Part shown: positions 8,704-48,025 of the stretch, in pieces | Numbering within the stretch: the stretch's first letter is position 1 | How the letters are laid out: each line of letters begins with the position of its first letter | Source: Ricordea florida | Lineage: Eukaryota > Cnidaria > Anthozoa > Corallimorpharia > Ricordeidae | Direction of reading: 5' to 3' | DNA: 64,000 nucleotides | NCBI GenBank assembly: GCA_949710005.1 | Contig: OX453284.1 | Coordinates: 3,506,001 to 3,570,000, forward strand | The notes under the pieces: generated by a model | What the model was told of the DNA's origin: nothing | Database searches by the model: none | Seen by the model: only the letters and a program-made list of their open reading frames with translations | Program-made: the position numbers and the translations under genes

Positions 8704-9010
8704 AGACCATTTGCAGGATTAGGTCACGTGCTTGGATACCACCTAGCAACGCCATGCTGGGACGCAAGCGTTCCAGCCGCCATATTTAGAATTATAGTGT
8801 GGTTAAGCGACACGAGCGATCTAAAAGAGTTCATCTTCAAACTTTTAGTTTTGTAAATGATATAACTATTATACTTGTTCGAATTTTGGAAGGAACACTC
8901 GCATATTTTGACAGAATACGGAACCTATTCCATCGTGACGACCTTTTGGCCTCATGGCGAGCAACGAAGGTAAGCAACCGTAACTGAAATATTCGTTGTT
9001 AGTCCTTTGT
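8704..9010 (+). repeat. Left terminal inverted repeat of ISL2EU element
   Basis: The outer ~100 bp is nearly identical to the right end, and the inner part is alignable with gaps. It contains the promoter region, the ATG (8954) and the first splice donor of the nuclease gene. Confidence 0.8.
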
Positions 9011-10816
9011 TTTGCCTCGGAAAAGATTTGAACTTTCATTCGCTCAATATAAGATACGGTACCTCTGACAGATTTCCATTTAGTTTACTCGCGAAGAGTG
9101 GTTGTCTTCTGTGACAACTGGTTTGTTGTTACCATAGAGTACTCAGAAAAACCGCGTTGTTTCTAATATTTTTTGTTGTATAAAGAACGAAGTTCTACCG
9201 GTAATCCGACGCAAGATATCCACCTCTTTCCTACCCTGACGTTTGCCGAAGTAGAGAGCTATGCGAAAATCTCTTCTGGTTGCACAAGCACAAGCAAAGC
9301 CTACAAATTCTTTGCTGAACCTGGATATCTCCACAATATTCAAGGTGAGCAATATTTCGTCACGCGAGTGCGTGTTTTATTTTCACATTTATTTTATGTC
9401 CTACGAAATGGATATAATAATAATTATCCAGTAACTATTTACTCTGAAATGTGATTGTTGTGCATCTATATGCCACACAGTATTTCGTACCCTTTGATGA
9501 ACAATCTTTCATGTCTTTCAGTGACTTACCTGCCAGATAAAGTGAAAGTTTCCGGTAAATGTTTCCGATCCATGAGAAAAAGTGAGCCCCCGCATCTTTT
9601 GGAAATATTTGTAAAGTTGGAGGACAAGGGTATCACTGGAAAATGTTCCTGTGTTGCAGGTGCAAGTGGCTATTGCCATCATGTAATAGGCCTGCTTTTC
9701 TATATGGCTCATTGTAAAATGTTTGGACTTACATCTCTACCAGATGATCTAACTTGCACCAGTATGCCACAGCGCTGGAGTGTACCAAGAGAAAAACGCA
9801 TTGGAACAAAAGAGATTCAGTCGGTACTGGTAAAAAAGCCAAAAATGGGTGCCAACTACAACAAGTTCATCAAAAGTACTTTGTACTCACCATCTTCTTT
9901 TTATGGAATCCTTTGCAAGAGTGATTTTACTGGCTTGGACCCATTGCCCTTGATAGCTGATATTGCACCCACAGCAGAGCAAAGACCTAATTTAATATTA
10001 CAGCCAACAAAATTTGGCAATGCTCCTAAAGGTAGTCCTCTGTCATACCAGCAAAAGCTCTCACAAGAATACGTCATAAATGACTTCCTTGCCTGTGATT
10101 TCCCAAAGTTACCATTGGAGGGTGCTGGAGAACGAATAACGAACAATGTTCAAGTTTGTTTAACTCAGGAGAGAGCCGCTGCACTTGATGCTTTAGCTGT
10201 TACTCGAGAAGTTGCAATTGACTTGGAAGCGAGGACAGTGACACAGGGTGCAAGTAGTCTTTGGCAGCTTCTTCGTTCAAAGCGAATTACTGCCAGCAAA
10301 TTTGGTTCTTGTGTAAAACGTGTAACAAATTTTGAAAACCTGGTGAGGCAAATAAATCCTTCACGTCGTGTTGTTACAGCAGCTATGAAGAGAGGAATTG
10401 AAATGGAGCCACATGCAGCTACAGTGTATGCTAATGTCGCTAAAGCTGGGATGGTCAATGTATTCCCATGTGGATTAGTAATTAATCCAAAGTGCCCATG
10501 GTTGGGATGTAGTCCTGACCGCAAGGTCTATGACATCAAAGCAGCAAATGAAGGGCGTAACCCATTTGGTTTGTGCGAAATCAAAGTTGTACAAGAGGGG
10601 GAGACAGATTTCAAAAATGTCAGATATCTTGCAATTGACCCAGTGTCCGATGAGATAACACTGAAAAGAAATCATGAATACTATTTACAGGTGCAGTGCC
10701 AGTTGGCACTGACAGGGTTAGAATGGTGTGCCTTTTTTTGTTATATGAATGACACTAAGTATTTTTGCCAACGAATCTTCTTTGATAAAATTTTTTTTCC
10801 AAGACAGCAAAGATAA
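8954..10816 (+). CDS. YqaJ-like PD-(D/E)XK nuclease with SWIM finger, transposon-encoded
   Basis: Accessory nuclease gene of the ISL2EU element. Exons 8954-8969, 9186-9344 and 9522-10816 join in phase to give 489 residues starting MASNEERSS. The middle of the protein has a SWIM-type zinc finger (CSC then CHH, translated from about 9646-9700). The C-terminal half has a YqaJ exonuclease fold: KRITASKFG, then SPD with the first acidic residue, CEIK (the ExK motif) and YYLQVQCQL. YqaJ-family proteins are phage-type recombination exonucleases; in these transposons they are thought to assist transposition, but the step is not known. It faces the transposase gene, with about 100 bp between the two stop codons. 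No frameshift or missing catalytic residue was seen. Confidence 0.88.
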
Positions 10817-10918
10817 GGTGGACATGTTCTTTTTCAACTATTTCCTAGGATCAATGTAATATGTAATAAGGAAAAATACAGCACAAGAAAAAGCATGTCA
10901 AAAACTTTATTAAACCTA

Positions 10919-13033
10919 CTAGTGAACAACCTCATTATATAACTGTACCTCCATTAAAAAGTTGTCTCCATTTAAAATTAGGGGCCCTTGAAAATTTGTT
11001 AATAAGCATGCCACTGTATATACCTGATTAATTGAGCCTAACATAGACAAGGGAACATCAGAATCGAAAATGTGAAATTCTTTTATCCTCTTAATGGCCC
11101 TCTCAACATGAATCCTGACTTTTGCAATCATTTTTGTCTTCTGAACCTCAGCTGCTGAAAACTGGGTTCTACTCTCCAAAAAAGGAGGAATGTTAAGGTC
11201 TACTTCCTTTTCCCTAAGAAGATCTTCAATATCAAAACCCTTATCTGCCATCACAGAATCCCCAGCCTCAAGTAAATCAAGTATACCTGAATATCTTGTA
11301 ATTTCTTTATCTGAATACAAAGAAGAAACAAAAGTGATGGCACCATGTGGTGAAATGCCTATTAAGCCCTTGAGAGTGGTGTTACTCTTGTAGGAAGAGT
11401 ACAGTTGAGACTGCAACAGAAGAGATGATGGTGTCTCAACAAAAAATTCTGTGCAATCAAGGATAACACGTGTAGTTGGATAGAGCTTCTTAAATTCTCC
11501 TGGCATCTTGGCACAAACATCAGCCCTGGAAGGCCAAATAGGTTGAGAACCCAAGAAAAAATATAAATAATTAGCCCAAGTAGTAATTTTTCTGCTAACA
11601 GATGAGATATGTAAATTGAAACGGTGTGCAAGATCTTGCTGAAAAAGCCCTAGTTTAATCCTAACAAGGAACATAAATAATTCATCTATCAGTTGCATAG
11701 CTCGGACATGTGGGCGGTTTTCTAGGACACCAGTTGCATAACAATATGTCATTTTCTCTGCTGTAGGTCTTATCAAATTATAGAAAAGTAAGAAATGCTT
11801 ATATGAACAGAACCCTGTGTAAAACTTGATTGCATCATCATCTGTTGAGAATCTCTCAATGCCAAACTTGTAAATCTTAAGTTCAGATGCAGCTTCTTCC
11901 TTTTGTCTTCGAAACTCTTCTTGTAGGTGGGCAAGAGCAGTATTAGCTTCTTTAGAGGCTGTCTGTGATTCTCTTTTAAGATCCTCCAGCTCAGCTTGTG
12001 TAGCATGAAGTAGCGCTTTTGTCTTCTCAAGCTCTTCTATCATTGCTTGGGAATCAGTAAATTCTTCAGTTGCACTTGGAGCATCATCACTGTTATCACT
12101 CTCATCTGTTTGACAGGCACCGTCAAGAAAAAGGTAAAAAAACTCAAAGTATTGTTGGGTCAGATCAGGTGCATCCAAAAATAAAAATACCAGCAAAATA
12201 GGAATGACAACAATTGGTAAAGTACAGGGCTATGATGATTTGATCATTGATTTGGTATAGCTTGCCCCACATAAATAATTGTTGATTTTCTTACACACCT
12301 TTCAACATGTCTGATTATCTTGCGCCTGCTGTTTGAAGCCGTTGCCCAGCTAAAAACGGTGGGGACAGTTCCTTTTTTGAGTAGACGCCTGCCTGCATTA
12401 TCGGGAGCATTGAAGTCCTCGTCCTTGAAATGTTTACTGCAAACCCTTGTCTTGGAAGTTATCTTGTTCATAACAGAGTAGGTGTTAAAACATTGTATCC
12501 ATGTAGATAAAAAGAATGAAAGACAAATAGGAAATCAATCAGTGGAATTACATTCTTCCAAAAAAAACCACTAACCTTGAAATATGGACCAACATCCCTT
12601 CTGATTTTAGCGATCCATTGCTTTCGAATTTGCTCTTCATTGGGCATTCGGTGAAATGACAGCGAGCTGTCATAGCGGCTGTCTCCGGTACACTGCGGGA
12701 CACAGCAATGACAGTTCCCACCCTTTGCTTTTTTCTTGGGCTCTTGGCAACTCGGACTACCTTCAACTGCGAGTCAAAATAGGAAAACAACCAAAACTAT
12801 TCAGGGAGATAACTGCAAACTGCGTAAAATTAGTCAATGACTTCGATGAGAACGATCACAAGCTTGCTACACATTTCAGTAACTATAGTTTCCATAATTG
12901 TTGATATAACTCCTCAGAGTTGCGGTGAATTTTAAATGTGAGCATACGAATCCTTTTCGAGGCAAAAATGACAAAACAAAGCACAAACAACAACGAATAT
13001 ATTTTACGGTTGCTTACCTCCGTTGCTCGCCAT
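10919..13033 (-). CDS. THAP-domain DDE transposase of ISL2EU type
   Basis: Transposase of the element. Exons 13018-13033, 12576-12766, about 12295-12462 and 10919 to about 12100 give roughly 518 residues in phase; the last two acceptors are less certain. The N-terminus has a C2CH THAP DNA-binding domain: CCVPQC, FHRMP, the W of KQWIAKIRRD, VCSKHF and GTVPTVF. An acidic stretch and a coiled coil (EELEKTKALLHATQAELEDL) follow. The C-terminal half is a DDE_Tnp_4-like (HARBI1-related) catalytic domain with D in VILDCTEFF, D in VMADKGFD and E in HVERAIKRIKEF. All three catalytic acids are present. A minus-strand AATAAA lies just before the stop region (plus 10909-10914). Exon 1 is 16 nt and almost identical to exon 1 of the nuclease gene because both lie in the terminal repeats. 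Confidence 0.85.
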
Positions 13034-13297
13034 GAATCCAAAAGGTAGTCACGGTGGTTCCGTATTCTCCAAAATTCACAAACGTTTTATAGTTACTTCA
13101 CAAAACAAATACAAAAGTTTTGAAAAAACCGTTGAACATGAACTCCAGCATAAATAGATCGCTTGTATGTTGACAGCAAACCCAGAAAGTCGCTTCGCCA
13201 CGCTATAATTTTCAAAATGGCGGCTGGAACGCTTGCGTCCCAGCATGGCGTTGCTAAGTGGTATCCAAGCACGTGACCTAATCCTGCAAAGGGTCTC
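12985..13297 (-). repeat. Right terminal inverted repeat of ISL2EU element
   Basis: Mirror of the left repeat. It contains the ATG (13033) and first donor of the transposase gene, in the same context as in the left arm (ATGGCGAGCAACG followed by GTAAGCAACCG). Confidence 0.8.
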
Positions 13298-18637: not shown

Positions 18638-19045
18638 GTTTAATATGGCGCGCCGTTTGTTTCAAAATTATTTTTTTCATTGGTTGTACATTTTTAATCT
18701 TTTTCTGTCCGGAGTCGTGGATATAAGCATGAAATCGATCAGCCAGCATATCAATCGGTAATTTGTCGTGTGAAATCGATCATAGGTCTGTACGATCGAT
18801 CATATTTTCATTCAGTTGTTCGATCAGTTATTTATGATCGATCAGTAGTGCGTATTTTCATTCAGTTGTGACTAAAATCGATCACTTGTTATATGATCGA
18901 TCAGTTGTCTGTATTTTCATTCAGTTGTGACTACGGAGAGAATCAGAAATTCCTCTGTCACTCCACGTCAGCTAGAGAAACAACATAGGAGCAACTGACG
19001 AGGTTCACTATAGAACCGAAACTGCAGTATTGCTTGAGAATTACT

Positions 19046-19309
19046 ATGGAGAACATACTAAACAGTGATAGTAACCTCTTGCCGGATCCATCACCAACAA
19101 AAAGGAGCGATAGCGATATAGAACTGAGCGAGGAGGAGACGAACATGCCAGGCACGCCTCTTTCAGAAATGATCCAAAGTTCTCAAGGAAGAATCTCTAA
19201 TACTCAAACGCCAAGAGAAAGCCGTAAACGTAACCGCGAAACGCGGAAAGAAAAAGCTCACATACGTGACAGTAGCAACGGCAATTACGGTAGAGCCAGA
19301 AAGCGTTAA
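19046..19309 (+). CDS. Unrecognised small ORF inside the TIR element
   Basis: 87 codons from an ATG at 19046, hydrophilic, acidic in the middle (SDSDIELSEEETN) and strongly basic at the end (RKRNRETRKEKAH...RARKR). No domain recognised. It could be the first exon of a lost transposase gene or a chance frame; the sequence after its stop is not open in any obvious continuation. Confidence 0.3.
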   Translation: MENILNSDSNLLPDPSPTKRSDSDIELSEEETNMPGTPLSEMIQSSQGRISNTQTPRESRKRNRETRKEKAHIRDSSNGNYGRARKR

Positions 19310-19994
19310 CGCTCTGACGAAAAGGCTGCCATGTAGATGTCAGTAAGAAAATCTTAGGAATCTACTGCCATACTACAGGCATTGAGACAAACATACTTGC
19401 CCCAGAACACTGAGATATAGTGCACGGGCAAAGATCAGACCGGATCCACAATTTCAATCTGACATCTATAAGATAAGAAAAGACGCAGAGCATTAACTGC
19501 TAGGAGCGTTAAAGAAATTTCACTACCGTAGCGTAGAGATAAACAAACTGGAACTTAGAGAACTTGAGCGAAAGTATTCTAAAGAAAACCTTATTGAGCA
19601 AATGGCATTTAATACAGAATCAACCTCTACTGAGTGAGATATACAAAGAGCCTCCCATCATATTGTACAAAAGAGCTCGAGGAAAATCGCTCAAAGACGT
19701 ACTCGTGAGATTCAAACTCTAAAGGCAAAGAAACCACACTTGCGAACAGCGGGAGTCGTGTAGGCCTGTCACAACTATTTTTAAATTTTATTTATTATTA
19801 TTTGGTTCCTTTTTTAATTACCCTCGACATGTTACCCTCGACTCTCGACACTCGACCAAAACCCAGACTCATATAAGCCTCAAATTAGATCAATTGCAAC
19901 AACAACAACAAATATATTAAACATACACAGGTAAACAACCCGAGACAGGCACTGTGTAAACATCTTACAAGGAAAATAAATCGATTTTACTAAC

Positions 19995-21120
19995 AAATGA
20001 ATGAAAATACGCACAACTGATCGATTCTAATCACAACTGAATGAAAATACGGACAACTGATCGATCATATGACAACTGATCGATTTAAGTCACAACTGAA
20101 TGAAAATACGCACTACTGATCGATCGGATAACAACTGATCGATTTTAGTCACAGCTGAATGAAAATACGGACAACTGATCGATCATATAACAACTGATCG
20201 ATTTAAGTCACAACTGAATGAAAATACGCACTACTGATCGATCATATAACAACTGATCGATTTTAGTGACAACTGAATGAAAATACGGACAACTGATCGA
20301 TCATATAACAACTGATCGATTTAAGTCACAACTGAATGAAAATACGCACTACTGATCGATCATATGACAACTGATCGATTTTAGTGACAACTGAATGAAA
20401 ATACGGACAACTGATCGATCGGATAACAACTGATCGATTTTAGTCACAACTGAATGAAAATACGGACAACTGATCGATCATATAACAACTGATCGATTTA
20501 AGTCACAACTGAATGAAAATACGCACTACTGATCGATCATATAACAACTGATCGATTTTAGTCACAACCGAATGAAAATACAGACAACTGATCGATTTTA
20601 GTCACAACAGAACGAAAACACGGACAACTGATCGATCGGATAACAACTGATCGATTTTAGTCACAACTGAATGAAAATACGGACAACTGATCGATCGGAT
20701 AACAACTGATCGATTTAAGTCACAACTGAATGAAAAGTACGCACTGCTGATCGATCATATAACAACTGATCGATTTTAGTCACAACCGAATGAAAATACA
20801 GACAACTGATCGATTGTTGTCACAACAGAACGAAAATATGGACAACTGATCGATCGGATAACAACTGATCGATCGGATAACAACTGATCGATTTTAGTCA
20901 CAACCGAATCAATATACAGACAACTGATCGATTGTTGTCATGTCACAACAGAACGAAAATATGGACAACTGATCGATCGGATAACAACTGATCGATTTTA
21001 GTCACAACTGAATGAAAATACAGACAACTGATCGATCATATAACAACTGATCGATTTTAGTCACAACTGAATGAAAATACGCACTACTGATCGATCATAA
21101 ATAACAACTGATCGAACAAC
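19995..21120. repeat. ~60-bp tandem array with alternating dimer (higher-order) structure
   Basis: About 18 units, each with AACTGATCGATC, a second CAACTGATCGATT, and CACAACTGAATGAAAATACG. Adjacent units often alternate between a CGCACTACTG...TTTTAGT form and a CGGACAACTG...TTTAAGT form, making a ~120-bp dimer. The same motifs occur in reverse orientation in the left terminal repeat, so the array appears to have expanded from the subterminal part of the right repeat. Confidence 0.85.
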
Positions 21121-21455
21121 TGAATGAAAATATGATCGATCGTACAGACCTATGATCGATTTCACACGACAAATTACCGATTGATATGCTGGCTGATCGA
21201 TTTCATGCTTATATCGACGACTCCGAACAGAAAAAGATTAAAAATGTACAACCAATGAAAAAAATAATTTTGAAACAAACGGCGCGCCATAGTTTAAAAC
21301 AAAAAAAATTATGTACAACAACAGAGAAAAAAAAAATATATATATATATATTTAACAATATTAAGAAAAAAAGAAGAAATGGAAAACAAACTATTAATAA
21401 CGACAGTAAAGAAAAGAGAAAATAGAACCAAATTAACTTTTAAGACTTAGGGGAA

Positions 21456-27301: not shown

Positions 27302-27444
27302 TATAGAGGTTTTGCACGCGTCACGTGATCCCATAGCAACGGTAACTACGCCGCCATCTTGCATGCCAAACACTAAACAGATTTTTTTGAAAAATAAACT
27401 AGTGAGCAGCACTCTGCGAACTGGTTTTGTAAAACTGATTTATT

Positions 27445-27487
27445 CTCCTACGCGTTTCGTCCGACTGTCGCGGACTTCTTCAGGGAG
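27445..27487 (-). ncRNA. Hammerhead ribozyme-like motif, inverted copy
   Basis: Minus-strand copy of the 43-nt motif described at 27497-27539, facing the direct copies. Stem I CTCC/GGAG, core CTGAAGA, stem II GTCCG/CGGAC, GAAA, helix III ACGCGT and a GUA cleavage triplet are all intact. Confidence 0.6.
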
Positions 27488-27496
27488 TTTTTAAAA

Positions 27497-27539
27497 CTCC
27501 CTGAAGAAGTCCGCGACAGTCGGACGAAACGCGTAGGAG
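27497..27539 (+). ncRNA. Hammerhead ribozyme-like motif, direct copy 1
   Basis: Stem I CTCC/GGAG; core CTGAAGA; one extra A; stem II GTCCG/CGGAC with loop CGACAGT; GAAA; self-complementary helix III ACGCGT; cleavage expected after GUA. The core matches the hammerhead consensus CUGANGA...GAAA...UH. The palindromic helix III implies pairing between two copies, as in Penelope-like element ribozymes. Confidence 0.6.
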
Positions 27540-27612
27540 AATAAATCAGTTTTACAAAACCAGTTCGCAGAGTGCTGCTCACTAGTTTATTTTTCAAAAA
27601 AATCGTCAAAAA

Positions 27613-35543: not shown

Positions 35544-35653
35544 TTTGATTGTAAGCTCGAATCCAGCTTACCCTATGAAAATTTTGGCCACAGCAAGGGA
35601 AGCTGGTAACTGGCATAAATTAAGTGTTTTATTTGAGGGTCGTTAATGGATCG
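35544..35653. promoter_or_regulatory. Probable bidirectional promoter, GON7-like/C14orf119
   Basis: Only 110 bp separate the two divergent start codons. No TATA box is obvious. Promoter role is inferred from position. Confidence 0.6.
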
Positions 35654-35986
35654 ATGGCCCTTTTAAGGAACGTTGGAGAAGAGGTAAAAATCGTTTTGTC
35701 TTGGTTTTCTGGCTGGAATGATAAACAGAAATGGCAATTCATGGATCTCCTGGTGGCTAAATCTGTACCAATGAAACTATATTCTCTTTATGACGCGATG
35801 GAGTCACTGTCAATCAAAGATGGAAACCCCGATGTGTTTCATTGTCAAATCCGATTGTTCAACAGATGGTTTGATCGTTGGACGGACAACGATAAGAACT
35901 TTTTATTGAATGGTCTTGAAGAGCGAAATTATGAGGCCGTGAACTACTTTTACGAGAAAGTGTCACAACCGTCACAGCAACATTGA
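35654..35986 (+). CDS. C14orf119: C14orf119 (DUF4508) homologue, single exon
   Basis: 110-residue intronless ORF from the ATG at 35654 (an earlier ATG at 35646 is in another frame). It matches the human protein along its length: VLSWFSGWNDKQKWQFMDLL with VAKSVPMKLYSLYDAMESLS, then a block ending FNRWFDRWTDNDK and a C-terminal FYEKVS. The human protein has an extra N-terminal segment. The molecular role of the family is not established. The giant palindrome starts 244 bp after its stop. Confidence 0.85.
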   Translation: MALLRNVGEEVKIVLSWFSGWNDKQKWQFMDLLVAKSVPMKLYSLYDAMESLSIKDGNPDVFHCQIRLFNRWFDRWTDNDKNFLLNGLEERNYEAVNYFYEKVSQPSQQH

Positions 35987-36230
35987 AAAATGCAAATGTA
36001 TTTGACATTTACTGTATACTCGAAGTGACGCTAACTCAAGTCCAACTGGAAATTCTCCTTGTCATATTTGGGTTCGCATTGATGAGGATGACAAAGTAGA
36101 CTGAGCGAGGAAGGATCTTTGGTAAAACTTCGTTTCCATGGGTCAAAGCGCCTTTCTGAGCCCACAGTTATAAAAGCACCCCCAGCAAACCCATGTTTTC
36201 TCATTGCCCAGCGGTACTGAAGGTGTTTTG

Positions 36231-39200
36231 GGTAGGTACTTCATATATAGTAATTATAATGTACCCCAATAGTGTTTTTCTAAAATACTTCAACTACTTT
36301 GTTACTTTGCTTACTTGAGATACTGTACTTACTTAAGATACTTTACTTACTTGAGTTACTTTGCTTACTTGAGTTACTTTGGTTACTTGAGTTACTTTCG
36401 TTACTTGAGTTACTTTGGTTACTTGAGATACTTAACTTACTTGAGATGCTTTGCTTACTTGAGATACTGCACTTACTTGAGATACTGCACTTACTTGAGT
36501 TACTTTGGTTACATGAGTTACAATGGGTTACTTGAGTTACTTTGGTTACTTGAGATACTTTACTTGATTGAGATACTTTGCTTACTTGAGATACTTTGCT
36601 TACTTCAATTACTTTGCTTACTTAATATACTTTGCTTACTTGAGATACTTTGCTTACTTGGGATACTTTCGTTACTTGGCATACTTAACTTACTTGGGAT
36701 ACTTAACTTACTTGAGTTACTTTGGTTACTTGAGTTACTTTGCTTACTTGAGATACTTTGCTTACTTGGGATACTTTGGTTACTTGGGATACTTAACTTA
36801 CCCTACTTGAGATACTTTACTTACGTGAGTTACTTTTGTTACTTGAGATACTTTGCTTACTTGAATTACTTTGCTTACTTGAGATACTTTGCTTACTTGA
36901 GATACTTTGCTTACTTGAGATACTTTGCTTACTTGAGATACTTTGCTTACTTGAATTACTTTGCTTACTTGAGATACTTTGCTTACTTGAGATACTTTGC
37001 TTACTTGAGATACTTTGCTTACTTGAGATACTTTGGCTACTTGAGATACTTTGGTTACTTAAGATACTTTACTTACTTGAGTTACTTTGGCTACTTGAGG
37101 TACTTTGGCTACTTGAGATACTTTGGTTTCTTGAGATACTTTGGTTTCTTGAGATACTTTGGCTACTTGAGTTGCTTTGGTTCCTTGAGTTACTTTGGTT
37201 ACTTGAGTTGCTTTGGTTACTTGAGATATTTTGGTTACTTGAGATACTTTGGTTACTTGAGATACTTTACTTACTTGAGATACTTTGGTTACTTGAGATA
37301 CTTTACTTACTTGAGATACTTTACTTACTTGAGATACTTTGATTACTTGAGATACTTTACTTACTTCAGTTACTTTGGTTACTAGAGATACTTTACTTAC
37401 TTGAGATACTTCACTTACTTGAGTTACTTTGAATAGTTGAGATACTTTACTTACTTGAGTTACTTTGGTTACTTGAGTTACTTTGGTTACTTGAGTTACT
37501 TGAGGTACTTTGGTAACTTGAGATACTTGACTTACTTGAGTTTCTTTGGTTACTTGAGTTTATTACTTTACTTACTTGAGATACTTTGGTTACTTGAGAT
37601 ACTTTACTTACTTGAGTTACTTTGGTTACTTGAGATACTTTACTTACTTGAGTTACTTTGGTTACTTGAGTTGCTTTGGTTACTTGAGTTACTTTACTTA
37701 CTTGAGATACTTTGGTTACTTGAGATACTTTACTTACTTTAGATACTTTGCTTACTTATCTCAAGTAACTCAAGTAAGTAAAGTAACTCAAGTAACCAAA
37801 GTAACTCAAGTAAGTAAAGTATCTCAAGTAACCAAAGTAACTCAATCAAGTAAAGTATCTCAAGTAAGTTAAGTATCCCAAGTAACCAAAGTAACTCAAG
37901 TAAGTAAAGTATCTCAAGTAACCAAAGTATCTCAAGTAACCAAAGTATCTCAAGTAACCAAAGTACCTCAAGTAAGTAAAGTATCTCAAGTAACCAAAGT
38001 ATCTCAAGTAACCAAAGTAACTCAAGTAAGTAAAGTATCTCAAGTAACCAAAGTATCTCAAGTAAGTAAAGTAACTCAAGTAACCAAAGAAACTCAAGTA
38101 AGTCAAGTATCTCAAGTTACCAAAGTAACTCAAGTAAGTAAAGTATCTCAAGTAAAAAAGGTATCCCAAGTAACAGAAGTAACTCAAGTAAGTAAAGTAA
38201 CTCAAGTAAGCAAAGTATCTCAAGTAAGCAAAGTATCTCAAGTAAGCAAAGTATCTCAAGTAAGTAAAGTATCTCAAGTAAGTAAAGTATCTCAAGTAAC
38301 CAAAGTAACTCAAGTAAGTTAAGTATCCCAAGTAACCAAAGTAACTCAAGTAAGCAAAGTATCTCAAGTAAGCAAAGTATCTCAAGTAAGCAAAGTATCT
38401 GAAGTAAGGAAAGTAACTCGAGTAACCAAACTAACTCAAGTAAGTGAAGTCTCTCAAGTAAGTGAAGTAACTCAAGTAACCAAAGTATCCTAAGTAACCA
38501 AAGTAACTCAAGTAACCAAAGTAACTCAAGTAAGCAAAGTAACTCAAGTAACCAAAGTAACTCAAGTAACCAAAGTATCTCAAGTAAGCAAAGTAACTCA
38601 AATAAGTAAAGCAACTCAAGTAAGTAAAGTAACTCAAGTAACCAAGGTAACTCAAGTAACCAAAGTATCTCAAGTAAGCAAAGTATCTCAAGTAAGCAAA
38701 GTATCTCAAGTAACCAAAGTAACTCAAGTAAGTAAAGTAACTCAAGTAACCAAGGTATTAACTCAAGTAACCAAAGTAACTCAAGTAAGCAAAGTATCTC
38801 AAGTAAGCAAAGTAACTCAGGTAGGTAAAGTATCTCAAGTAACCAAAATAACTCAAGTAAGTAAAGTATCTCAAGTAAAATAAGTATCCCAAGTAACAGA
38901 AGTAACTCAAGTAAGTAAAGTATCTCAAGTAAGCAAAGTATCTCAAGTAAGCAAAGTATCTCAAGTAACCAAAGTATCTCAAGTAAGCAAAGTATCTCAA
39001 GTAAGCAAAGTATCTCAAGTAAGCAAAGTATCTCAAGTAAGCAAAGTATCTCAAGTAAGCAAAGTATCTCAAGTAAGCAAAGTATCTCAAGTAAGCAAAG
39101 TATCTCAAGTAACCAAAGTATCTCAAGTAACCAAAGTATCTCAAGTAAGCAAAGTATCTCAAGTAAGCAAAGTATCTCAAGTAACCAAAGTATCTCAAGT

Positions 39201-39452
39201 AAGCAAAGTATCTCAAGTAAGCAAAGTATCTCAAGTAAGCAAAGTATCTCAAGTAAGCAAAGTATCTCAAGTAAGCAAAGTATCTCAAGTAAGTAAAGTA
39301 ACTCAAGTAAGTAAAGTAACTCAAGTAAGTAAAGTAACTTAAGTACTCGAGTAACCAAAGTAACTCAAGTAAGCAAAGTAACAAAGTAGTTGAAGTATTG
39401 TAGAAAAACACTAGTTGGGTACATTATAATTACTATATATGAAGTACCTACC
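36231..39452. mobile_element. Giant foldback element: 3.2-kb palindrome of an 18-bp minisatellite
   Basis: The outer arms are ~80-bp unique inverted repeats beginning GGTAGGTACTTCATATATAG. Inside, an 18-bp unit (GAGATACTTTGCTTACTT and variants such as GAGTTACTTTGGTTACTT) repeats about 80 times up to ~37757; the orientation then flips and the complement repeats about 88 times to ~39370. The flanks show a possible 8-bp duplication with one mismatch (GTGTTTTG at 36223-36230, GTGTTTGG at 39453-39460). Structure resembles Foldback/Galileo-type elements with expanded repeats. The unit length is divisible by three, so long open frames of 100-413 codons are artefacts. Confidence 0.85.
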
Positions 39453-39459
39453 GTGTTTG

Positions 39460-40210
39460 GGCTATGGACAAGGACTTACCGTACCCGTTAGGGTACCTCG
39501 ATCGATATATCGAACGATGCATCAGTCGAGATATCGATCGTTACGCGATCGACATGTCAATCGATTGTCGACCCGGCAGCTACGTCATGTATGGGGACAT
39601 ATATTGTACCGTGTACATTCAATGTACCTTACTTATCTTGATTGAGGTGCTTGGTTTGCTTGAGGTGTTCGGGTTGCTTAAGGTGCTTGGCTTCCTAGTG
39701 TCGCTTGTGGTACTTTGGTTGCTTGAGGTGCTTGGCTTCCTTGGGTCGCTTGAGATGCTGGGGTTGCTTTAGTCGCTTGTGTTGCTTGAGGTAGTTAATT
39801 GCATTGCTTTTGTTGCTTGAGTTGTGTACATTTTTCTGTTTCAAACCAGTTGATAACAGAACATAACGCACTAGTCTTTAATTTTTAGGAGACTGTGAAA
39901 GCCAGCATTAGCCCTTTAGCCCTTTGTTACAACCAATCTGTGTGAAAAATATTGAAAAGGTTATCCTGTTTCAATATCAGAATCTCAGTCAGACAATTGA
40001 GCGAGAAATAAATTTACTTCACTCCATTAGAAATTATAAGTTAATCAGTCAATAACTTAATTAGTCGCAAACATTTGCATAACTTGGCAAACAAGAGAAC
40101 ACTATTAAGGGACTAATCTGATGACGACGGCATTGATAATGATGTTCCTTTATTTATAAACGATGATGTTTTAAGATTTAGAGCTTATGGGTTCGTGTTA
40201 CTAAAAATCA
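39460..40210. other. Gene-free interval
   Basis: Holds CG-containing palindromic words (CGATCGATATATCGAACGAT, ATATCGATCG) at 39500-39570, then a degenerate GCTTGAGGTGCTTGG-type short repeat at 39645-39800. Nothing gene-like was seen. Confidence 0.6.
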
Positions 40211-40325: not shown

Positions 40326-40850
40326 AAATCAAACTTAACTCTTTAAGCCCTAAGGGGTCTCCCTGCGACGAGTAGAATTGTCTGTCGTTAGCCAGAGTAA
40401 AATCTATAAAATCATTCTTAGGGGGTAAAGTGTTAGGAGAGATTCTTGTTTTCAAGGAGAAGATAATTATGGTAGCAACCTTCCTGATCACTCTTGGTGA
40501 CAAAGCTTCAATAACCAATCAGAAATGGGCATGCATCTTGTAAAAAACTGATTATAAATACTGTAATTTTACAACAATTTTCAAAATAAATATTTCCACT
40601 CATCACCTGATGTCTTATTTTATTCATTTTATATGTACAGGGTTAAGTAACAACAGTAGGTGAACTGGGTGATGTAAACAACTCCCTTTAATGGAGGAAC
40701 ACCAGTCTCCAGCTTATGTCTATCACATGATATTCAACGCATGGTCTTACATGTACTATGTAAACAATGCCAAAATTATTGATTGAGGTACTAGCCACCA
40801 TGCACGTTTTCTCTCATGATCTCTTTTCCAACCATCCTGTTGACACAGAC

Positions 40851-45400: not shown

Positions 45401-48025
45401 CCTAAGAGTGACTTTATAGCTATATTTCTCTTGCTATCGCCAGACAATTTTACTTGTCACATTTCTGATTTAACCCCTAAGAATGACTTTATAGATTTTA
45501 CTCTGGCCAATGCTAGAGAATTTTACATGTCACAGGGAAATCCCTTTAGGCTTCAAGGGTTAAGGATCTAACAAAACTATTTACTGTCCACCAGTAACTG
45601 GGGATCTGAAAGTGACACTGAAGTAGTTTTCCATAATGGAAACTCTCCACCAAAGGGATTTGGTGAGTAACCTCGACAAATTCAACAAGTTTTATCATTG
45701 TTAATAACATTTGCTTATTTGTCTATATTATTTGTCTTTGCCAGAGGGTTAGGTGCACACACACAAAAGGAAAAATGAAGTAGTTCAAGTACACTCTAAG
45801 GAACTAAAGCAACATAGGGATGCCAAAATGTGTGAACCAAATAAATCAACTTTGGCATATAATGTTCTAAAGCTGTTTCTCTTCAATATGGTTAGTAGTC
45901 TCCTCCGCAGCCGTTATTAGGATCGTCACGCAACGCTTCTCCCCCACTAACGGCTGCTTCAACCCGAACTCTTTTTGTTTCCCTTTGTTTAGAGTTCACG
46001 TGAAATTTACAGAATTGCACCAATCACGCGTTGCCTATTGTCCACTCTGAAACCAATTAACGTATCAGTAGTTTGTCAATGATGTCAGTTTCCCGCGTCA
46101 ATTCATCGCCTCCAGTTGCTAGATGTTGCCATAAATCTCAGAGATTTCCTATGGATCTAACTCCGAAGAAAATAGTCAAAAGCGGCTCTGGGTGCTTCAT
46201 TTGTTCGTCGGCTTTCCTCAAGAATAACAAAATCTTCATTTTCGGTAAGAGTTCACTCGACATTGCTGAAGTCATCCGATCCTCGCTATCTGTGGACGTG
46301 AGTCGCTACACAGAAAACAGCGAACTGTTCGTCTGTAGAGACAAATGCTACTAGCGTTTGATAAAATTTAATCGGGCATCGGATAAGTTGAAGGAGCTAA
46401 AGAAAGAAATCGAAGAAGTCTTCAAGGCAAGAGAACAGGGCAAAGCGCAGAGCAAAACGCCTACTATATCCAGATGAGAATGCCGACAGAGGTGCCAAAA
46501 TACATCAACTTCATCACATCGAGGAAAAGCATCCAAATCGCTGCGATCTGCCGATACCACTTGTACTTCTTCGGATGCGTTGGGAAGCCGAATAATGAAT
46601 TGTCAACCACTACGACAACACGTAATTGAAGAGGTGTTGAAGATTGCGTCAAAAGAAGTTACTGGCTTTAACTCAAAATAAAACCCTTCGATGTTGAGGA
46701 AGGATGAGAATAACAGTCTCGAAATGCTGCCATCTTGTGATGTTTTACAATTTACCAGCAATACCATTTTAAACTCGAGCATAAACTAATGCTTGAAATC
46801 AAATATTTATTGTGTACAACAAATTAAGTATAAGCGAGTTGTAAAGGAAATTCACATAGGAATTGCTCAAATCCACTATTCATCAATACGTCTCCGGCCT
46901 GTGTATTACGCTTATGCTTTTTCTTTTTCTTCTCAGGTAAGCTTAATAAAAATATCCCGGGCGCGAAAGGTGAAGTCATCAATTTACAAGCTTAAGATTT
47001 CAATGCCTACAGTATTTGTAAATTAATTCACACAGGATTTCCTATCTGAAATGTAACTTCAGAAGCGGAATTGACAAACAAAAACATGTGTCCAACTGAC
47101 CCTTAACTTGCCACTGCTTTATAACATGAGCTTTATCATAGCCACGGCACATAACTTTATACTGTATACATCATTGCACAACATGGTTCTCCAACGATCA
47201 TTCAACAGCCACGCTCCTGGTGACCCGAAAACGATGGGGTATTCTCCCTCCTCAATCCACTATCTGTAGCCAATAGAACACGAGTTGTGATTGGACAATT
47301 TAGTCTTGGCGCGACCGCCTCAGGAATATGTGAGGCATGTTGTGATTGGCTAATTCGCGGAAACAAAAAGAGTTCGAGTTTTAGCAGCCGTTAGTGGGGG
47401 AGAAGCGTTGCGTGACGATCCTAATAACGGCTGCGGAGGAGACTATATGGTTAGTAGCAAGTTGATAATAAGTGATAAGCTTAACCCTTTCACTCCCATC
47501 AGCCATTAAAATGTAACAGCTCAATACATTATCAAGCAAACAGGGAGAGGAGAATTGGACTACATGAGAATTATCCAAAGTAAGACAAAATGTGGGACTA
47601 ACGTATGAGAATAGCTACTTATACCTTGGAGATTAAAGGGTTAATTTTCAGTGTTTTTTCAAACAGGGCACATTGGTTTGGTAGTGCCAGATGTGGATAA
47701 AACCTGTAAAAGATTTGAAGAACTAGGGGTTAAGTTTGTCAAGAAGCCAGATGCTGGTACGTTTTGTCTTACCAACTGTAGTTATTTTGTATAACATCTC
47801 AATCTGCATTTAACCTAGTTGATTACTTGGTCAAGGTACACTTTTGTCAGTGGTGAGGGGTTCCTATATTTCAATTTGCAATTTATAGGAATAAATAGGT
47901 TATAATTTTCTCATCTAGGTAAAATGAAAGGGATTGCTTTCATCCAAGACCCTGATGGCTACTGGATTGAAATTTTGAATGGAGAAAATCTTGTCAAGAC
48001 TACTAAAGAGCAAGCTTCAAAATAA
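42457..48025 (+). CDS. GLO1: Glyoxalase I (lactoylglutathione lyase)
   Basis: Converts the methylglyoxal-glutathione hemithioacetal to S-lactoylglutathione in the cytosol. Exons 42457-42599, 42978-43118, 45595-45662, 47667-47756 and 47919-48025 give 182 residues, against 184 in human. Two glyoxalase half-domains are readable: [58 protein letters not shown] and [12 protein letters not shown]. The four metal ligands of the animal enzyme are all kept: Q in FQQTM, E in LELTH, H in GHIG and E in WIEI. A poly(A) signal AATAAA is at 48079-48084. Intron 2 has two MITEs and intron 3 a 1.55-kb transposon. Confidence 0.97.
43411..43652. repeat. MITE, copy A of an inverted pair
   Basis: Ends CCCGTTCACATCAAAGCTTA and mirror TTTAGTTGGTGTGAATAGGG, with TTTAGTTAAACAG-type inner arms. 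In GLO1 intron 2, 21 bp from copy B. Confidence 0.65.
43674..43920. repeat. MITE, copy B of an inverted pair
   Basis: Same family as copy A in opposite orientation: TGCTGCGTTCACACCAACTA at the left and AGTTTCAGTGTGAATGCAGC at the right. Confidence 0.65.
45388..45563. repeat. Dispersed repeat with CCCTAAGAGTGACTTTATAG, two units
   Basis: Two diverged ~75-bp units between inverted TAACCCTTGA/TTCAAGGGTTAA ends. Related sequence occurs near 40330-40390, 47485-47640 and 54610-54650. In GLO1 intron 2. Confidence 0.6.
45896..47445. mobile_element. MULE-like 1.55-kb DNA transposon in GLO1 intron 3
   Basis: Terminal repeats of ~70 bp begin TAGTCTCCTCCGCAGCCGTT and include GTCACGCAACGCTTCTCCCC. They are flanked by an exact 9-bp duplication TATGGTTAG (45887-45895 and 47446-47454). 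A 9-bp duplication is typical of Mutator-like elements, but no MURA-type transposase is present, so the superfamily is tentative. The interior carries a small Cys-containing ORF. Confidence 0.8.
46076..46354 (+). CDS. Zinc-finger-like ORF within the MULE-like element
   Basis: Up to ~92 codons with a C-x2-C (GCFICSS) and a C-x3-C (CRDKC) separated by ~45 residues, reminiscent of ZAD-type or THAP-adjacent fingers. The frame stops at 46354. Basic and acidic coiled sequence continues in frame after the stop (translated [12 protein letters not shown]), so this is probably a decayed transposon gene. Confidence 0.4.
   Translation, partial: SMMSVSRVNSSPPVARCCHKSQRFPMDLTPKKIVKSGSGCFICSSAFLKNNKIFIFGKSSLDIAEVIRSSLSVDVSRYTENSELFVCRDKCY

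Follow-up and report, generated by a model that had tools for sequence, protein, structure and literature searches.

In the foldback (FB) elements of Drosophila, tandem repeats make up inverted arms of great length; target duplications of 8 to 10 bp flank the elements, which mostly carry no transposase. A similar anatomy, with 8- to 10-bp duplications, is described for Tetris of D. virilis, in which two alleles differ by one repeat unit (PMC4079207). The ends of Tm1 elements of root-knot nematodes contain varying numbers of a motif of ~14 bp (PMC3169594), and in Galileo, of the P superfamily, the long end repeats contain extra transposase-binding sites (PMC3688188). The terminal inverted repeats (TIRs) of Merlin elements were first described as 24-462 bp long (PMC8101967).

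The window, a 64,000-nucleotide stretch of the Ricordea florida genome, contains an inverted repeat that we regard as almost certainly a copy of a non-autonomous foldback (FB-type) class II DNA transposon. Compared by description, the element and its relatives share with the Drosophila FB elements, Tetris and Tm1 very long inverted tandem-repeat arms, duplications of 8 to 10 bp and a general lack of transposase. Most copies read here lack a middle domain, in contrast to Tetris, whose middle domain varies, and to those Tm1 elements that contain internal sequence or a putative transposase. The repeat unit here is 18 or 36 bp and one of the arms is as long as 8.5 kb, unlike in the descriptions of Tetris and Tm1. 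Galileo shares the long, internally repetitive ends but has a known P-superfamily transposase; none was found in the copies read here. The arms can also far exceed the length first described for Merlin TIRs, and no transposase was found between these ends. In a limited check of the literature, which included no sequence search, no earlier description of the family was found. The family looks new, while the foldback kind has been known for decades.

The inverted repeat occupies window positions 36231-39452 (3,222 bp), exactly the interval given in an initial annotation of this DNA, and its left and right arms measure 1,527 and 1,695 bp, as that annotation had estimated (~1.53 and ~1.69 kb). The 20-mer GGTAGGTACTTCATATATAG lies at 36231 on the plus strand and at 39433-39452 on the minus strand (expected number 0 in 100 shuffles), and a search at up to 3 mismatches found no third site in the window. 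The features of the locus are as follows.

35624..35986, plus strand: host gene frame, DUF4508 (PF14969, E 8.6e-27), stop codon at 35984-35986
36223..36230, no strand: left copy of the target-site duplication, GTGTTTTG, matching 39453-39460 at 7/8 positions
36231..36316, plus strand: left terminal inverted repeat, 5'-GGTAGGTACTTCATATATAG..., identical to the right end at 83/86 positions; its terminus recurs in the genome
36303..37757, plus strand: left arm, tandem array of the 18-bp unit TACTTTGCTTACTTGAGA, ~81 units (TRF and unit parse)
37746..37764, minus strand: centre junction TTGAGATAAGTAAGCAAAG, at the meeting point of the arms; five places in the genome at up to 1 mismatch
37763..39380, minus strand: right arm, 18-bp tandem array in reversed orientation, ~88-90 units (TRF and unit parse)
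39367..39452, minus strand: right terminal inverted repeat, with the GGTAGGTACTTCATATATAG match and 83/86 identity
39453..39460, no strand: right copy of the target-site duplication, GTGTTTGG, matching the left copy at 7/8 positions
39575..39821, plus strand: candidate diverged one-armed relative, with a TIR-like start at 39575 and a diverged 18-bp array at ~39630-39821

The two outer ends are identical at 36/36, 83/86 and 93/100 bp. Parsing of the arms, partial units included, gave ~81 units on the left and ~90 on the right, each of 18 bp, and TRF gave 80.8 and 87.8 copies. The arms abut at ~37757/37758, with neither loop nor gene between them, and the long open frames within the element are translations of the 18-bp repeat. 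The best end-to-end BLAST alignment of the arms showed 88.0% identity over 1,547 columns, many shifted registers reached 84-87%, and the order of units was largely different in the two arms. Given these many registers and an arm identity of ~88%, the structure is a palindrome built from repeats rather than a near-perfect mirror. Thus, of the "near-perfect palindrome" first proposed, the palindrome stands and the near-perfection does not (arms ~88%, ends 83/86). The suspected 8-bp target duplication is present but inexact, GTGTTTTG and GTGTTTGG agreeing at 7 of 8 positions (chance 0.0008 per test).

The family was surveyed in the window's own genome (537.8 Mb, 48 contigs). At up to 3 mismatches the terminus occurred at 223 places, compared with 72 for the reversed control, and a sister terminus, ending in GA, occurred at 74 places at up to 1 mismatch (control 0). 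At up to 1 mismatch, termini of both subfamilies occupied 102 distinct places among the matches listed. Within 20 kb of one another, these 102 termini formed 35 neighbouring pairs, 32 of them convergent and none divergent; 0.3 were expected by chance, and the largest number in 200 random placements was 2. The initial annotation had staked its reading on the existence of other copies with the same terminal repeats, and these 102 listed places and 32 convergent pairs provide them. The terminus pairs spanned 95 to 16,979 bp. The elements read comprised 20 of the 32 convergent pairs, namely the window copy plus 19 further elements (20 loci), the longest being 10,057 bp; the 12 pairs outside this set include two with long spans (9.7 and 17 kb).

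All 17 fetched elements longer than 1 kb contained arrays in both orientations, and paired arrays were missing from two short elements of 138 bp (L012) and 272 bp (L028). There are two subfamilies, one with ATATAG ends and 18-bp units and one with ATATGA ends and 36-bp units (which can also be read as 18- or 72-bp units). The conserved end spans ~60-86 bp, and the arms usually meet without an internal gene. Extra sequence within or between the arms was present in five elements. One arm of L015 contains a 1,308-aa Ty3/gypsy-like frame, identified from its translation; L014, L025 and L027 have inserts in the middle or an arm, with no frame longer than 115 aa, that look by eye like other insertions; and L019 has a spacer of ~80 bp. 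A 479-aa frame without a Pfam match was seen at L040, and DUF3504 frames were found near L042. No transposase or autonomous copy was found in the copies read, and a search of viral and prokaryote contigs with the terminus gave no match.

Target duplications were compared across the 20 elements. Exact duplications of 8-9 bp flanked seven, and duplications with one mismatch flanked four, including the window copy; two had an exact 6-bp duplication (one common insertion), and seven had none. The length in the family was mostly 8 bp. By the same measure, 5 of 378 swapped flanks and 0.18% of random sites passed. When the joined flanks of L026, with one copy of its duplication, were used as the query, 41 matches were obtained, of which 40 ran uninterrupted across the junction and one was partial. 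The uninterrupted matches covered 174-180 of the 180 query bases at 94-100% identity; of 266 first-look candidates, 40 were scored. L010/L011, of the 18-bp type, and L026, of the 36-bp type, are inserted at the identical base in copies of one repeat, their shared flanks being 97% and 94% alike, which suggests a target preference. Separately, the flanks of L018 are themselves inverted copies of each other, 97% alike over 164 bp, with the insertion at their centre, and those of L016 form a weaker, off-centre inverted repeat (87% over 52 bp); this pattern may reflect either insertion into the centre of a palindrome or a larger inverted duplication.

Searching the genome for the 19-bp centre junction with up to 1 mismatch gave five places, each of them the centre of an element (control hits 0). 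Its carriers are the window copy, L010/L011, L013, L014 and L015; it is absent from L009 and L016, though they belong to the same subfamily. Since the window copy has this junction in common with four other elements, the palindrome was not built at the present site. The possibility that the two ends of an element homogenise each other was considered and rejected, because the nearest relative of an end was the element's own other end in just 4 of 36 cases. Distinct ends recurred crosswise between elements, for example between L022 and L024 and between L017 and L026, and in the latter pair the arms also matched crosswise; several end sequences in this comparison are common to many copies. The shared centre and the crosswise recurrence of distinct ends suggest that copies move as complete elements, bringing both ends and an already formed centre.

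Long inverted repeats are easily misassembled, and an assembly artefact (a misjoin, or a hairpin in which one arm was mirrored) must be weighed here. However, the window ends differ at 3 of 86 bases, the arms are unequal in length and in their order of units, this structure recurs with duplications at many other sites, five elements have the same centre junction, and the target of L026 exists uninterrupted. The shared anatomy, the duplications and the empty sites thus make misassembly very unlikely, and they bear out the doubt about a simple mirrored misjoin that the initial annotation had voiced. Its overall reading, that the structure is an insertion bounded by terminal repeats and flanked by a target duplication, is likewise supported by the termini and duplications across the genome. 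The family shows what is expected of foldback elements: inverted arms of tandem subrepeats, multiple copies with shared termini, a near-constant duplication length and, for L026, a pre-insertion target (40 uninterrupted places). Collectively, the convergent termini, the target duplications, the uninterrupted target and a junction confined to element centres argue for a foldback transposon that moves whole.

The DUF4508 frame upstream of the element, which we take to be C14orf119-like, ends 244 bp before the element begins at 36231, as had been noted. A Gon7-like frame is divergent from it (E 6e-5, under the Gon7 curated cut-off). The position of the element behind this gene is compatible with a locus for long-hairpin RNA, a source of small RNAs kept to regulate its neighbour: the predicted fold of a transcript runs from one end to the other, with 1,391 of 1,419 RNA pairs joining the left arm to the right, and the plus strand has no AATAAA or ATTAAA from the stop codon to position 40007. 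Against such a role, copies are present at many other sites and the arms are just ~88% alike, and we regard it as highly improbable. Downstream of the foldback element, positions 39575-39821 probably represent an older, decayed one-armed relative. The array at ~39630-39821 scored 61 against the element's arm, compared with a mean of 12.7 and a maximum of 25 in 60 shuffles. With the terminus of the second subfamily as the query, the start at 39575 ranked top of 1,212 window stretches, by one point only; with the element's own terminus, other window stretches scored equally or better.

A change in arm length was visible in one duplicated element. L013 and L015 lie within a duplicated 1.67-kb unit, whose flanks show 11 mismatches over 1,666 bp and no gap; these two were multiplied within the larger repeat and not by a jump of their own. 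Six of the 11 gaps between them correspond to whole 18-bp units (18 bp in five cases, 198 bp in one), and the others are one of 4,319 bp, corresponding to the retroelement, and four small ones. The alignment contains 80 mismatches, many of them beside the retroelement, where it is unreliable. In this one pair, units were gained and lost in 18-bp steps. The suggestion that arm length changed after insertion therefore draws its support from the whole-unit gaps between L013 and L015, and not from the window copy itself.

The two arms of the window element share one block of unit order, with a score of 19.5, compared with a mean of 10.0 and a maximum of 16.5 in 200 shuffles and 15.5 for the reversed order. 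Among elements of the 18-bp type, private 40-mers were shared more by arm pairs within an element than by pairs between elements (p 2e-4; 6 versus 60 pairs, which are not independent). Five of the six elements ranked in the top 7 of 66 arm pairs, and the sixth, L013, ranked 27th. Within-element sharing was weak in the 36-bp type (p 0.049), and 7 of 11 elements shared none. The left arm of the window element has 45 private 40-mers in common with its own partner and 37 with an arm of L013. Because an L013 arm nearly equals the element's own partner, and because of the weakness in the 36-bp type, we describe block sharing between arms as partial. These sequence comparisons make it likely that, in some elements, blocks have been exchanged from one arm to the other. 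Inherited unit order in the 18-bp type was strong for the duplicated pair L013/L015 only (391 and 128); the left arms of L010 and L013 scored 20.8, and most other arm pairs were near background, several lying slightly above the maximum of 6 shuffles.

Two elements brought a different origin into consideration, in which the foldback elements would be terminal-repeat derivatives of a Polinton/Maverick-like element with a minisatellite in its long ends. At L034, a 1,408-aa ORF, adjoined by an rve integrase, is immediately preceded by a terminus and an 18-bp array, and a comparable junction precedes a Rho_N frame at L033. We take the 1,408-aa ORF to be PolB-like from its motifs; Pfam returned only Endonuclease_7, below the cut-off. 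In the upstream DNA of 10 other PolB-like copies, however, nine begin AGAGA and one (L050) AGAGT, and the 18-mer or the terminus occurred outside these starts in none of the 10, compared with 12 hits in the L034 control. This origin of the arms is thus largely refuted, all 10 starts reading AGAG rather than GGTAGG and having no array, and we give it practically no weight. The same results indicate that L033 and L034 are most likely Polinton-like insertions into foldback arrays. The Polinton-like start at L053 reads AGAGAGT. The PolB-like frame of ~1,400 aa was present in 33 scored copies of 6,914 first-look candidates, 88-100% alike and 27 of the 33 without a stop, and a search for related loci with this frame found no relative.

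Within the foldback reading, membership of the Merlin superfamily, with an IS1595-type DDE transposase, would be a refinement rather than an alternative. Merlin ends are described as having 5'-GG termini and duplications of 8-9 bp (PMC8101967). Both features are seen here, with a single end, the right end of L016, reading GC. The DDE_Tnp_IS1595 domain is also common in the genome (150 scored matches). However, the shortest distance between these 150 matches and the 102 listed termini is 15 kb, five long intervals that were checked contain no match, and no such transposase was found with the family's ends (102 listed termini, up to 1 mismatch). Duplications of 8 bp are, moreover, made by superfamilies other than Merlin, which also counts against the assignment; those of Mutator (MULE) elements are mostly 9 bp, compared with mostly 8 bp here. 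We judge Merlin membership possible but less than even, and the element is not filed under Merlin. We know of no earlier foldback lineage with Merlin ends, and if the link were true, this would be the first as far as we are aware.

The mechanism is ordinary for elements of the foldback kind. A DDE transposase, possibly of Merlin type, would be supplied in trans, recognise the conserved ends, cut the element out and paste it in elsewhere. Drift of the arrays would follow through slippage or unequal exchange, and some elements would also see exchange from arm to arm. By analogy with Galileo, the repeats may serve as extra transposase-binding sites. A bolder proposal, which we hold only tentatively and consider rather unlikely as a whole, is a core-less foldback lineage with a Merlin-type transposase, in which the element consists of two minisatellite arms only, jumps whole with both distinct ends kept, prefers certain target sites (both subfamilies occurring at the identical base of one repeat) and keeps exchanging blocks between its arms across the hairpin. 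The foldback element shows how a transposon can carry a dispersed minisatellite around a genome. As the copies number in the dozens and fall into two subfamilies, array growth, shrinkage and mirror-arm exchange become measurable, and the persistence of multi-kilobase palindromes in a chromosome can be studied.

Other repeats were observed in the genome and the window. L045 (C1:43.57 Mb) and L047 (C11:18.53 Mb) have a third type of end, GGTAGTTACTTCATATATCG, and form hairpins of ~105 bp without arrays; these are likely a MITE relative of the foldback family. A second foldback-type element lies at window positions 18644-21291. Its inverted ends (5'-TATGGCGCGCC) match at 98% over 293 bp, its arms consist of a 59-bp minisatellite (~2 and 18 copies), its middle is ~1 kb long and, by eye, it has a 6-bp duplication, GTTTAA. 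The transposon at 8704-13296, with inverted ends 93% alike over 108 bp and YqaJ-like and DDE_Tnp_4 transposase frames, presumably resembles ISL2EU elements. Positions 40334-40429 and 45469-45564 are inverted copies of each other, 82% alike, with TTAA beside them, and their ends resemble by eye the TIR of coral CMITE family II at 13 of 14 bases (PMC2872659), a resemblance in keeping with an anthozoan genome. CMITE was also considered as a match for the foldback family itself and rejected, since CMITEs are different, TTAA elements (PMC2872659). Finally, a 225-bp palindrome with 99.6% self-complementarity occupies positions 27380-27604 and overlaps a three-copy 116-bp repeat.
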